Assembly (NCBI GenBank): GCA_022822005.1
Contig: JAJECO010000086.1
Coordinates: 1 to 64,000, forward strand
DNA from: Candidatus Poribacteria bacterium
GTDB taxonomy: Bacteria; Poribacteria; WGA-4E; PCPOR2b
Reading direction: 5' to 3'
Length of the DNA stretch: 64,000 nt
The position numbers were made by a program, and so were the translations under genes. Below the pieces are notes generated by a model, which saw only the letters and a list, made by a program, of their open reading frames with translations, was not told where the DNA came from and searched no databases. This document shows positions 31,118 to 35,265 of this stretch, one piece after another (position 1 is the first letter of the stretch; every line of letters starts with the position of its first letter).

Positions 31118-31445
31118 GTTGCCTATCTGGTTAGCAGTAGATCGTCGGAGGTTCTTCATCAGGTTAGAGAAAAGCAAAAACTCTTGTGTGCCAGATCACG
31201 GGATAGCTTGAGAAGAATGTTCCAGAAGTTAAAGAGCTGCCACCTTTAAAAATCCATCGGTCTTCTCGCATGAGCAGGCACCCGCGTCCATTAAGGTGCT
31301 TTATCGTTCACTCCGGAGGAGCGATATGTATATAACCGACCTGAGTAAGTGATCAACGATGGATTTGTGTTGACTCTCTACCAAAGTTGTCACGGAATTT
31401 GCAAGAGACACACTCAATTATATAAAATTGAGGAGGAAAGAGACT
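31118..31445. other. Intergenic region before the redox locus
   Basis: No gene recognised. Open frames here are short and lack ribosome sites. It must contain the promoter for the 31446 gene; TTGACT at 31370-31375 is a candidate -35 box, but no good -10 lies 16-18 bases behind it. Confidence 0.5.
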
Positions 31446-32384
31446 TTGAGACAGTACATTCAGATACTCATCGCTTTCGTCTGCCTTATCAGTTATTTGG
31501 GGTGTAGTGGCGATAAAACACCGACAGGATGGGGACAGATCCAGTCTGGAACGGAGGCGCACCTGTACGGTGTCCACTTTATCGATGCCAAACGTGGTTG
31601 GGCAGTCGGTACGGACGGTTTGGTGCTGTCAACAGAAGACGGCGGGGTGACGTGGCTGGTGCGCTCGCCAGAAAAAGCGGTTACTCCGAACGCACTCAAT
31701 AAGGTGCATTTCGCCACTCCCAACAACGGTTGGGCGGTCAGTATCAGGGGGCAGATCCACTATACGGGAAGCAGCGGCAAATCTTGGACACCCCAAAAAA
31801 GCCCTACCGACGCTGGACTACTCGACATCTATTTTCTGGACGAGACAGAAGGTTGGGCGGTTGGTGGTGGTGGTGTCATCCTGCATACAAATAACGGTGG
31901 CGGTACATGGAGCCGTCAAAACTCACCACCGACCCCACATCTGTGGGCTGTGCACTTTGCTGACGCGAAGCACGGCTGGGCTGTTGGGAAGGAAGGGAAG
32001 ATTCTCCACACAAATAACGGTGGCGAAGCTTGGGGGGAACAGCGAAGTTGGACCGAAGAATCGCTACTCGGCGTTTATTTCGTCAACCCGCAGACCGGTT
32101 GGGTCGTTGGAACAGGCGGGTTAATTCTGCATACGACCGATGGCGGTGCGAACTGGCAGCCTCAGAAAAGTAAGACACCCAAAACTCTACGCGGCGTCGC
32201 ATTTCGAGACTCCAAACAGGGCTGGGCAATCGGTGAAGATGGATTAATTTTGCATACGACCGATGCTGGGTTCACATGGTCACCTCAAGCGAGCGGATCG
32301 CCGTGGCACCTGCTGGACATCTGCTTGTATAAAGCGCATGCTTGGATCGTTGGATCAAAGGGCACTATTTTACGGCTCAGTTGA
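31446..32384 (+). CDS. YCF48-like seven-bladed propeller lipoprotein
   Basis: 312 residues. A lipoprotein signal ends in ISYLGC (Cys20). Seven repeats of about 42 residues follow, each with G-W-A-V-G-x-x-G then L-H-T-x-x-G-G-x-x-W, as in YCF48/HCF136-like BNR propellers. This suggests a periplasm-facing assembly or scaffold protein. The start is a TTG: AGGAGG (31431-31436) lies nine bases before it, so an earlier in-frame TTG inside that site is excluded. First of six same-strand genes for exported proteins. Confidence 0.85.
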   Translation: MRQYIQILIAFVCLISYLGCSGDKTPTGWGQIQSGTEAHLYGVHFIDAKRGWAVGTDGLVLSTEDGGVTWLVRSPEKAVTPNALNKVHFATPNNGWAVSIRGQIHYTGSSGKSWTPQKSPTDAGLLDIYFLDETEGWAVGGGGVILHTNNGGGTWSRQNSPPTPHLWAVHFADAKHGWAVGKEGKILHTNNGGEAWGEQRSWTEESLLGVYFVNPQTGWVVGTGGLILHTTDGGANWQPQKSKTPKTLRGVAFRDSKQGWAIGEDGLILHTTDAGFTWSPQASGSPWHLLDICLYKAHAWIVGSKGTILRLS

Positions 32385-32525: not shown

Positions 32526-33074
32526 ATGTACACGAAACTGTTTTGCCTGTTTGGTTTAATATTCTGTATGCTACCAGTTTTGGGGTGTTCAGACGCTACA
32601 GACGATGACTCTGACAAAATAACAGACACCGTTGATCCTTCATTTCAACTTGCCCCTAACTTCACACTGTTAAACACAGAACTCGAAGAGGTCAGTCTCA
32701 CAGATTATCAGGACAAAGTTGTCATCGTCGATTTCTGGGCGACATGGTGTAAACCTTGCAAAGAAGAGATTCCGCGCTTCATCGAACTGTACGATGAATA
32801 TCAAGCACAGGGATTTGAGGTGGTTGGCATATCAACGGATGACGTAGACGGGCGTCTAAAAAATATAGAAACCTTTTTTCAGGAACTGAGTGGAGAAGGT
32901 CACGATATTAACTATCCGATCCTTCTGGCAGATTCCGACACTATTCAGAGATATCAAGTTCCCGTCTTACCATCTGCATATCTCGTCAATCGTAACGGAG
33001 AAATTGTAAAGATATTTGAAGGTGCACAGGAAAGTAAAGAAATCTACGAAAGAGAGTTGAAAAAATGGTTATGA
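32526..33074 (+). CDS. TlpA-like thioredoxin-fold lipoprotein
   Basis: 182 residues. A lipoprotein signal ends in PVLGC (Cys21). The acidic linker is followed by a thioredoxin-like domain: APNFTLLNTELEEVSLTDYQDKVV, then VDFWATWC75-K-P-C78KEEIPRF, and a late cis-Pro loop VPVLPSAYLVNRNGEI. It is probably a membrane-anchored reductant for extracytoplasmic thiols, as in the TlpA/ResA family. GGAGG precedes the ATG. Its stop overlaps the start region of the selenoprotein gene, which suggests that the two work together. Confidence 0.92.
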   Translation: MYTKLFCLFGLIFCMLPVLGCSDATDDDSDKITDTVDPSFQLAPNFTLLNTELEEVSLTDYQDKVVIVDFWATWCKPCKEEIPRFIELYDEYQAQGFEVVGISTDDVDGRLKNIETFFQELSGEGHDINYPILLADSDTIQRYQVPVLPSAYLVNRNGEIVKIFEGAQESKEIYERELKKWL

Positions 33075-34084
33075 GAGATGGACTAAATAAAATTCAATCA
33101 TTGATAGCTTTAGCAGCTATCCTGATGTTGTGCCTTGGTTGTGGAACCGATGACGAATCTATTGTGGAACCGGACACAACCGTGGGACCGGACACGACCA
33201 AGGAGCCGGAGGCAACTGTACAGCCGGAAACAACTGTAGAACCGGTTGTGCCGCCTGTGGAGGCAGACCCTGTTATTCCAGCCGAACCGCCGGCAGACCA
33301 AGCTGAGGAAGTTGAAGAGGTATTACCGATCATTCGTGGGCTCGTGCTGGATCAGATAACAAAAGATCCTCTCATCGGCGTAAGCGTTAAACTGACCGAT
33401 GAAGCCGGGGTTGTTTTAGAGACTCCAACAGCTAATTCAGGTGTCTTCGAGTTTGAAGGGATTGCCGCGGATCAGAAACTTACCGTTACCATCGATATCG
33501 ATGAATACGAGAAACAGGAGTTCATTGTTGATCCGATTCCAGTTGGCGAAACGGTAAAATTGGAGGTCGAACTTATTCCGCTCAATCCGGAGCAACTTCC
33601 AGAGGGAGATGGCCTTGCCATTGGCTTGAAAGCACCGGACTTCAACCTGCCTGATAGTGATGGGGAAATGATAGCCCTTGCAGATTACGCAGGCAAGCAG
33701 AAGGTTGTGTTGGTCTTTGATCGGGGTGAGTTCTGACCTTCCTGCATTGAGCAACTCGGCGAGTTGCAACAAGATTATGCAGCGATTCAGGCGGCGGGTG
33801 CTGAGCTTCTTGCAATCAGTACAGATAATGCAGCAAAAGCGAAGAATGCGATTGAGAAGGTCAAACGGCGGGGTAACGTTGAAATTGGGTTCCCTCTACT
33901 TGGAGACCCGGAGCTAAAAACAATTGATGCCTACAACGCAAGAGATCCGCTAAATCCTCGGATCGCGCGCCCTATGACCTATATCATTGATGAAAACGGG
34001 ATTATCCGCTGGAAATTCCTTGATGTGCGCGTTGGTAATCGGCTCAAGGGCGAAAGGATTGTCGCAGAACTGAAAGGTTTGTAG
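33065..34084 (+). CDS. Selenocysteine-containing peroxiredoxin-like lipoprotein (TGA read as Sec)
   Basis: 339 residues if the TGA at 33734-33736 is read as selenocysteine (U224). Domains: lipoprotein signal ending LCLGC (Cys26); a Thr/Pro/Glu-rich stalk (about 30-85); a carboxypeptidase-regulatory-like beta domain (about 89-172); and an AhpC/TSA-type thioredoxin fold (about 186-339). At the active site VVLVFDRGEF-U-PSC matches the family's F-Y-R-G-x-x-C-P-x-C, so U sits exactly at the peroxidatic Cys and makes a UxxC motif with C227. The frame stays open and family-like for 115 codons past the TGA (IEQLGELQQDY, ISTDNAAKAKNAIEK, ARPMTYIIDENGIIRWKF). A SECIS-like hairpin follows at once. Other genes here use TGA as stop, so this is local recoding. 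The ATG at 33071 is an alternative start. Confidence 0.88.
33734..33772 (+). promoter_or_regulatory. Candidate bacterial SECIS element with its UGA codon
   Basis: After the TGA (33734-33736), GCAACTC (33751-33757) pairs perfectly with GAGTTGC (33761-33767) around a GGC loop; TTG (33747-33749) and CAA (33770-33772) can extend the stem. The apical loop begins with G and lies 21 nt after the TGA. Known bacterial SECIS elements have a G early in a small apical loop, 16-37 nt from the UGA, on a stem of at least 4 bp. SelB would bind here. Confidence 0.75.
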
Positions 34085-34095
34085 GCGGTCAAACT

Positions 34096-35265
34096 ATGGC
34101 AAGCAGAACATCACCCAAATCAGATTCGATAGTTGCTCAGATTCGATCGGATTGTGACCAAATTTCGCGGACGAAGAACGTAGGACCCCAATCGGTGAGT
34201 CGACGAAGATTTTTACGTCAGGCATCAAAAGGTGCTGTTGGGATGGGACTCGCTCTGGGGAGCATAACTTCAGCGGCCAAAGATACCTTTGCGCAACTCG
34301 ATCGTCAACGCGGAGGTCCACCGGGAGAGATGATTGAAGAAGAGCTCATGCCGCTGGTCGAAGCGACTAGCGAAAAGGTGTGGAATGGTGATGCGCTTGA
34401 CGAGGCGGTTGTGGGTGAGATGATTGACCGGGCAATGATGGAACTAACCGGACTGGACTCAGCGAAGGAGGCATGGAAGGATTTTGTTCTACCGACAGAC
34501 ATCGTTGGAATTAAAATTAATCCACTTGCCGGAAAGCAACTGAGCACCCATCGGGTCATCGTTGATAAAATCATCGACGGGTTATACGGGGCGGGTATCC
34601 TCAGCAACCAGATTGTTATCTGGGATCGCTTTGAGTCAGATCTGATTGATGTAGGCTACGAGATCAACCAAAGTAATCGAGGGGTTCGCTGCTTCGCGTC
34701 AGACAGTAAAGGCGTAGGCTACGACGACGAGGTTTTCTATGAAACCGATAAAGATGTCGAGGAACGCCGCGAAAATGGAAGTGTCCTTTCCCGATATACA
34801 AATCTCCTGACCAAAGAGCTGACGGTGGTGATTAACGTTCCGGTGATGAAGCATCACGGGATCGCGGGCGTGAGCGGTTGTCTCAAGAACCTTGCCTTCG
34901 GCAGCGTCGATAACACCAGTCGATTTCACTCTAATCCTATAAATTGTAACCCCGCCATCGCTGATATCTTCGCGCATACGGTCCTCAAAGATAAGGTTGT
35001 TTTGAATATTGTTGACGGGCTGCTTGCCGCGTTTGATGGGGGACCCGAGTATGACCCGAACGGAGTGTGGCAGTACGGCGGAATCCTCGTGAGCCAAGAT
35101 CCAGTTGCGTTGGATCAGATTGTCTACCAAACAGTGGAAGAGAAACGGACGGAACTCAATCTGCCGTCTATCTCTCGATTGTCGAAATATATCCGCTCAG
35201 CATCGAGGATGGATCTGGGCACCAACGACCTTGATGAAGTGGATTATAAAGAGATAAAGGTCTAA
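34096..35265 (+). CDS. Tat-exported DUF362 protein
   Basis: 389 residues. A twin-arginine signal (SRRRFLRQASKGAVGMGLAL, about 35-54) predicts export in folded form, with a long N-terminal extension before it. The DUF362 core follows: DIVGIKINPLAGKQLSTHRVIVDKIIDGLYGAG, INVPVMKHHGIAGVSGCLKNLAFGSVDN, and LNIVDGLLAAFDGGP with VSQDPVALDQIVYQ. DUF362 proteins are of unproven function; ferredoxin-linked roles are known for some, but no CxxCxxC cluster motif is present here. The gene follows the selenoprotein after 11 bases, consistent with one transcript. Confidence 0.88.
   Translation: MASRTSPKSDSIVAQIRSDCDQISRTKNVGPQSVSRRRFLRQASKGAVGMGLALGSITSAAKDTFAQLDRQRGGPPGEMIEEELMPLVEATSEKVWNGDALDEAVVGEMIDRAMMELTGLDSAKEAWKDFVLPTDIVGIKINPLAGKQLSTHRVIVDKIIDGLYGAGILSNQIVIWDRFESDLIDVGYEINQSNRGVRCFASDSKGVGYDDEVFYETDKDVEERRENGSVLSRYTNLLTKELTVVINVPVMKHHGIAGVSGCLKNLAFGSVDNTSRFHSNPINCNPAIADIFAHTVLKDKVVLNIVDGLLAAFDGGPEYDPNGVWQYGGILVSQDPVALDQIVYQTVEEKRTELNLPSISRLSKYIRSASRMDLGTNDLDEVDYKEIKV

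Follow-up and report, generated by a model that had tools for sequence, protein, structure and literature searches.

A single TGA divides one reading frame of a Poribacteria genome

A gene of a Candidatus Poribacteria bacterium is divided by an in-frame TGA, which raises the question of whether this codon ends the protein or is read as selenocysteine (Sec) and, if it is read, which position of the active site the Sec occupies. The gene lies in a stretch of 64,000 nucleotides (the window; positions 1 to 64,000 of contig JAJECO010000086.1, here C39) from a MAG of 6.0 Mb that is 97.78% complete and belongs to the Poribacteria, a group known from marine sponges. We found that the forward-strand frame from 33065 to 34084 is interrupted only once, by the TGA at 33734-33736 (residue 224, in the context FDRGEFUPSC), and otherwise runs to a TAG stop, giving a predicted UxxC peroxiredoxin (Prx)-like selenoprotein of 339 residues, probably an exported lipoprotein, with Sec224 (U224) as the first residue of a UPSC motif. 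Its ATG at 33065 lies inside the 3′ end of the upstream gene, with an overlap of 10 bases, and an ATG is present at the equivalent start position in 5/5 same-genus relatives. An earlier sequence-only reading had taken the two segments flanking the TGA to be one protein, a view upheld by the single in-frame TGA, the FDRGEFUPSC motif, and a match to the AhpC-TSA family that continues across the TGA.

One explanation to be weighed is that UGA has been reassigned as a sense codon (e.g., for Trp) in this lineage; we found nothing in its favor. The upstream gene (32526-33074) stops at TGA, and across 884 kb of the same genome TGA ends 103 of the 390 open reading frames that are 300 codons or longer, so that TGA is an ordinary stop elsewhere in the genome and the code is, as had been claimed from the sequence, unchanged genome-wide. 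Reassignment is also opposed by a homologue in another genome that has Cys (TGT) at the Sec codon and by the full Sec machinery of this genome, both described below, and we regard it as exceedingly improbable.

Conservation of the TGA and selection on the sequence beyond it

The codon alignment comprised 30 sequences, the window gene and 29 relatives, over 178 columns; four further loci (L074-L077) were omitted as repeats of genomes in the set. TGA occupied one column in all 30 sequences, and the other 177 columns contained none. Because one column of 178 holds any TGA, and holds it in 30/30, the TGA is not there by chance. In a protein alignment made with 24 of the 30 sequences, the 23 relatives were 40 to 96% identical, and the nearest named relatives, the Poribacteria MAG records L074-L077, were 65 to 94% identical over the best segment. 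After the TGA, dN/dS was 0.04 to 0.34 in 15 same-genus pairs with dS values of 0.18 to 1.05; before it, over ~60 codons, dN/dS in same-genus pairs was 0.03 to 0.19. Purifying selection acts on the protein sequence on both sides of the TGA.

That the sequence comes from a MAG assembly could favor the idea that the gene once had Cys here and that its TGA arose by nonsense mutation or through an error of sequencing, but the same codon is TGA in relatives as distant as 40% identity, four relatives are separate named records, and purifying selection continues past the TGA, all of which make this explanation extremely unlikely. We rejected a sequencing error, a pseudogene, and a change of the code on the grounds of the 30/30 TGA, the selection downstream, and the TGA stops elsewhere. 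Sec decoding of UGA competes with termination, which could favor a different alternative, namely, that the functional product is a 223-residue protein ending at the UGA and that Sec insertion is only marginal. The stop would then, however, fall within the AhpC-TSA domain, and the selected sequence downstream would lie outside the product; we consider this very unlikely.

A protein search of 97 genomes, the window's own included, gave a match in 95 and none in 2. Among the matches listed, an entry with exactly one TGA, a class that may include paralogues, was found in 69 genomes, that is, in 68 of the 72 genomes of the window's own order (its own genome among them) and in one genome outside that order, G079. 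One genome, G081, had an entry without a stop among the matches listed, and the remaining 27 of 97, including the two without any match, had no entry there; in the window's own order, the genomes without an entry among the matches listed were G006, G011, G014, and G016. The G081 sequence is a Cys homologue, reading RGYWCPVC with TGT where the window gene has TGA, so that a search for a Cys homologue aligning across the TGA, suggested on the basis of the sequence, was successful. Two TGA-bearing copies of the gene stand in tandem at G007:C730:12618-14584, and adjacent TGA copies are also present in G013, G017, and G022 among the matches listed.

The selenocysteine machinery of the genome

A single tRNA-Sec, with the anticodon tca, scored above the Rfam cutoff in the genome (76.2 bits versus 47); it adjoins selB (C78:432-2324) and selA (C78:2400-3758), which are both over the cutoff and adjoin each other. 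A selD gene, also over the cutoff, is located at G000:C66:75130-76050 (L033). It is a selenoprotein gene itself, with its own UGA in the context TCGUAAK near the N terminus and a predicted hairpin 3′ of that UGA. Thus, the check for selA, selB, selD, and tRNA-Sec found all four in the genome.

SelB was over the cutoff in 81 of the 97 genomes searched and in 75 of the 84 that belong to the same phylum, and with SelB in 75/84 phylum genomes, selenocysteine looks like a group-wide trait. No SelB over the cutoff was found in five genomes of the window's order with a TGA entry (G050, G059, G063, G065, and G070, all 73 to 83% complete), in G016, or in G081, the genome with the Cys homologue, which is 61% complete. 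According to excerpts of PMC5649159, SelA and SelB co-occur in most of the sponge symbiont bins studied, and the window gene offers a concrete case behind the co-occurrence that these excerpts describe.

We concluded that UGA 224 is almost certainly read as selenocysteine. Sel genes are not missing, a Cys homologue is not lacking, and the TGA is not confined to one sequence; together, the machinery, the aligned homologue, and the TGA in 30/30 sequences agree with the functional selenoprotein that had been proposed.

A SECIS-like hairpin downstream of the UGA

A SECIS-like hairpin with a 7-bp stem, GCAACTC-GGC-GAGTTGC, lies on the forward strand at 33751-33767 and begins 14 bases past the UGA. 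With the T of the TGA as base 1, it takes up bases 18 to 34, and GCAACTC-GGN-GAGTTGC or a sequence near it stands at this fixed distance across the alignment. Stem cells were paired in 98.9% of cases, compared with 14 to 56% when the partners were slid, and 6/7 stem pairs were present in L050 and L052 (2/30 sequences). A double compensatory change was seen at one stem pair of one sequence (C-G to U-A in L053) and was matched by 18 of 500 shuffles; covariation is limited because the peptide encoded by the hairpin is itself conserved.

The codons of the stem are nearly fixed, with CAA, CTC, and GAG each present in 29/30 sequences and TTG in 30/30; elsewhere in the genes, these codons make up 57%, 25%, 30%, and 22%, respectively, of those used for their own residue. 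When the hairpin peptide was recoded at random with synonymous codons, a full Watson-Crick stem arose in 133/20000 cases (336/20000 with G-U pairs). The Cys homologue of G081 encodes a similar peptide, QLEELQ, but retains 5/7 pairs, and no fold was obtained for its 17 bases. Single-sequence folding is weak evidence for the hairpin: a 51-base fold was only moderately better than shuffles (z score of −1.43), and 16 of 200 shuffles equaled it. An Rfam search of positions 33500 to 34100, with E values of up to 5, gave no match for the hairpin. The conservation and the presence of the machinery support a model in which SelB and tRNA-Sec would decode UGA 224 as Sec, steered by the hairpin.

Protein architecture and neighboring genes

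The N-terminal signal segment (33065-33142, forward strand) contains a hydrophobic stretch, modeled at low confidence as a helix of residues 4 to 23, and ends in the lipobox-like LCLG-C26. Cys26 of LCLGC is at least 90% conserved in the 24-sequence protein alignment. These features make it likely that the Sec protein is an exported lipoprotein, in line with the cell-surface or periplasmic location that the sequence-only reading had assigned to it. Between the LCLGCG start and a CarboxypepD_reg domain (residues 90 to 170; 33332-33574, forward strand; Pfam PF13620, E value of 2.8e-8, 34.5 bits versus a cutoff of 32.3) lies a linker with abundant Pro, Glu, and Thr. The AhpC-TSA (peroxiredoxin-fold) domain that spans the TGA comprises residues 186 to 316 (33620-34012, forward strand; Pfam PF00578, E value of 2.2e-29, 102.3 bits versus a cutoff of 26). 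An AlphaFold model was confident over most of the AhpC-TSA domain and poor for residues 25 to 83, and its best matches were peroxiredoxins (AhpE 4x1u, Z score of 24.5, rmsd of 1.9, 154 residues aligned). Scores were below the curated cutoffs for the SelL-related redox protein NF040769 (43.3 bits versus 120) and for PrxU NF040737 (39.1 bits versus 270).

The upstream gene with which the Sec gene overlaps (forward strand) encodes a TlpA/ResA-like thioredoxin lipoprotein with a WCKPC motif, and a gene for a DUF362 protein follows downstream at 34096-35265, also on the forward strand. We checked the neighbors at 16 of 33 loci, representing 12 distinct genomes of the 29 relatives, and found the DUF362 gene downstream in 12/12. 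Beside the Sec gene, the TlpA-like gene was present in L051-L053 and in the five relatives of the same genus; it was not found there in L050 or L054-L056 (4/12 of the relatives examined). Its position makes the TlpA-like lipoprotein a candidate electron donor of the selenoprotein. Three consecutive genes here have lipoprotein-like N termini, with YLGCS at 31428-32384 (YCF48-like), VLGCS in the TlpA-like protein, and CLGCG in the Sec protein.

Position of the Sec in the active site

In an alignment with PDB structures, FDRGEFUPSC stands over FFPAAFSPVC of 2cx3 and over WCPHC of ResA 3c71. The motifs compared are the PxxxS/TxxC motif of peroxiredoxins, with its peroxidatic Cys, and the CxxC motif of thioredoxin type. 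The column of U224 is that of the Ser/Thr of PxxxS/TxxC and of the first Cys of CxxC, and Cys227, the second residue of UxxC (33743-33745, forward strand; TGC in 27/30 sequences and TGT in 3/30), occupies the column of the peroxidatic Cys. The Sec had been placed at the peroxidatic position itself, and this assignment proved to be off by three residues. At Arg302-Pro303 (33968-33973, forward strand), Pro303 falls in the column of the catalytic Arg, aligned with the Arg of 2cx3, and Arg302 is one residue away. When the 18 PF00578 matches of the genome were aligned, the result agreed and set Pro303 with the Pro of TlpA-type members; since the G081 homologue has Ala in this column, Pro303 is not kept by all relatives. 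The PxxxT motif was absent from the Sec protein in both alignments, and the UxxC motif (U with Cys at +3) was found in 30/30 aligned sequences. By these alignments, a peroxiredoxin fold carries a thioredoxin-type UxxC motif that begins with Sec224.

The same residues might also be arranged around a different nucleophile. Sec224 would still be inserted, but Cys227 would attack in the manner of an AhpE-type peroxidatic Cys, Sec224 would only resolve the resulting sulfenic acid, and the protein would be a true peroxidase, as might be expected from a fold nearest to those of AhpE and other peroxiredoxins, from a Cys227 kept at the peroxidatic column in 30/30 sequences, and from an Arg302 only one residue off the Arg column. 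The Pro at the catalytic Arg column and the missing PxxxT speak against this assignment, as do paralogues in the same genome that keep U and have Ser or Asp at the position of Cys227, and we consider it unlikely, though not so remote as the alternatives above.

These paralogues are G000:C68:43024-43407 (RGTWUPNS) and G000:C51:164848-165231 (RGAYUPKD), and in keeping U where +3 is Ser or Asp they suggest that the essential residue is Sec. One TGA each was found in 6 of the 18 PF00578 matches of the genome, the window gene included, and the Sec motifs are UPSC (window), UPNS (C68), UPSC (C19), UPKD (C51), and those of two TGGU domains within one frame of C51. That frame (G000:C51:191728-192549; L003, L089, and L090) has tandem peroxiredoxin domains, with FTGGU twice, and a signal-like N terminus, and in both of its domains the Sec is at the true peroxidatic position. 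A single genome, judged by these motifs, uses both Sec positions, UxxC and TxxU.

On the reading that we prefer, the product would be an extracytoplasmic, probably membrane-anchored selenoprotein with a peroxiredoxin fold and a thioredoxin-type active site, in which Sec224 would be the nucleophile of UxxC and Cys227 would close a Se-S bond with it. Its substrate may be a peroxide, a disulfide, or another oxidized thiol in the envelope, and its re-reduction would probably fall to the thioredoxin-like lipoprotein encoded just upstream; both suggestions are guesses. We put the probability of this explanation as a whole, an envelope UxxC selenoprotein with decoding by SelB and the hairpin, Sec224 as the nucleophile, and an upstream reductant, at roughly 0.87.

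Other UGA genes and a MetE-like gene near selD

We scanned for coding frames interrupted by TGA and obtained 34 rows, of which 5 came from control loci and 29 from the 884-kb sample, which contained the window. Judged by eye, 28 of the 29 sample rows were a stop followed by another gene or a doubtful frame, and only the window gene looked real. With this one convincing frame among 29, the idea of a selenoprotein-rich genome was not borne out. Of the 6 UGA sites already known in the control loci, the scan found 4 and missed C19 and selD, and more UGA genes may therefore exist.

The fifth control row brought to light a MetE-like gene (PF01717, 369 residues) upstream of selD, at G000:C66:73658-74764 (L033:29-1135; also L146-L152). 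Its UGA stands in FHL-U-RGN, where 1ypx has HICRGN. Matches at E values of ≤1e-30 were found in 35 genomes, 7 of which had a TGA copy, namely, this genome and six others that were 79 to 93% identical; the other matches listed were 32 to 36% identical and had no stop. At 23 loci with stop-free matches, we found HVCRGN (TGC or TGT) in 16 and no such motif in 7. A Sec-type selD start shares the locus with the TGA-bearing gene in 6/7, and in 3/7 the lowest-energy fold contains a hairpin of 5 bp whose loop is GGT. In MetE, the His and Cys of HxCRGN and the later Cys of PQC bind zinc. The MetE-like gene is probably a new selenoprotein gene, in which Sec would take a predicted zinc-ligand position, and we find it more surprising than the Sec lipoprotein; if true, Sec would act as a zinc ligand of a methyltransferase.

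The literature on selenocysteine and cobalamin-independent methionine synthase yielded no title on a Sec-containing MetE among the papers listed, and no such protein was found in excerpts of PMC10418091 or PMC8318568. In excerpts of a 2026 review (PMC13188914), we found no mention of methionine synthase or MetE and no use of Sec at a position like this zinc-ligand position.

Relation to known selenoproteins and significance

Prx-like selenoproteins in which UxxC replaces TxxU were described in 2005 from the Sargasso Sea (PMC1088965, in excerpt); excerpts of PMC2398784 list the same kind as "Prx-like 1" in GOS, and a table of the 2026 review has a UxxC Prx-like thiol:disulfide oxidoreductase. 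Like those proteins, as these excerpts describe them, the window protein has a PF00578-type domain with Sec first in UxxC and not in TxxU. It differs in adding a lipoprotein-like N terminus and a CarboxypepD_reg domain and in its occurrence, with a near-fixed hairpin, in most of one Poribacteria order, although it is set apart on both counts by the excerpted descriptions only. With the PxxxTxxU Sec peroxiredoxins it shares a fold family, and the same genome has TGGU copies, but its Sec lies three residues earlier, and it has neither PxxxT nor an Arg at the catalytic column. It resembles ResA/TlpA thiol-disulfide oxidoreductases in having Sec at the first CxxC position, a Pro at the shared column, and a likely envelope location, whereas its overall fold is closer to that of peroxiredoxins. 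The same review table places a UxxS selenoprotein in the peroxiredoxin-like family cd02970; the UPNS of the C68 paralogue is similar to it, and the UPSC of the window protein is different. In the literature on selenoproteins or selenocysteine with Poribacteria, as far as its accessible text goes, we found no description of the Sec lipoprotein. The kind of protein has thus been known since 2005, and its architecture and its Poribacteria lineage were not found described in these partial sources.

Under the standard code, gene calling yields two pieces of a conserved redox enzyme, divided at what is likely its catalytic residue. We lean slightly toward the view that the Poribacteria have an undescribed envelope selenium redox system together with a MetE-like use of Sec. 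If so, a Sec-UxxC lipoprotein with a CarboxypepD_reg domain would stand beside a DUF362 gene throughout the order and beside a thioredoxin-like lipoprotein in part of it, and the Sec machinery would also serve a MetE-like methyltransferase in one genus and one neighboring genus. The chemistry of such a system would be defined by a thioredoxin-type UxxC on a peroxiredoxin fold, in the same genome as paralogues with the Sec three residues away, in TxxU.
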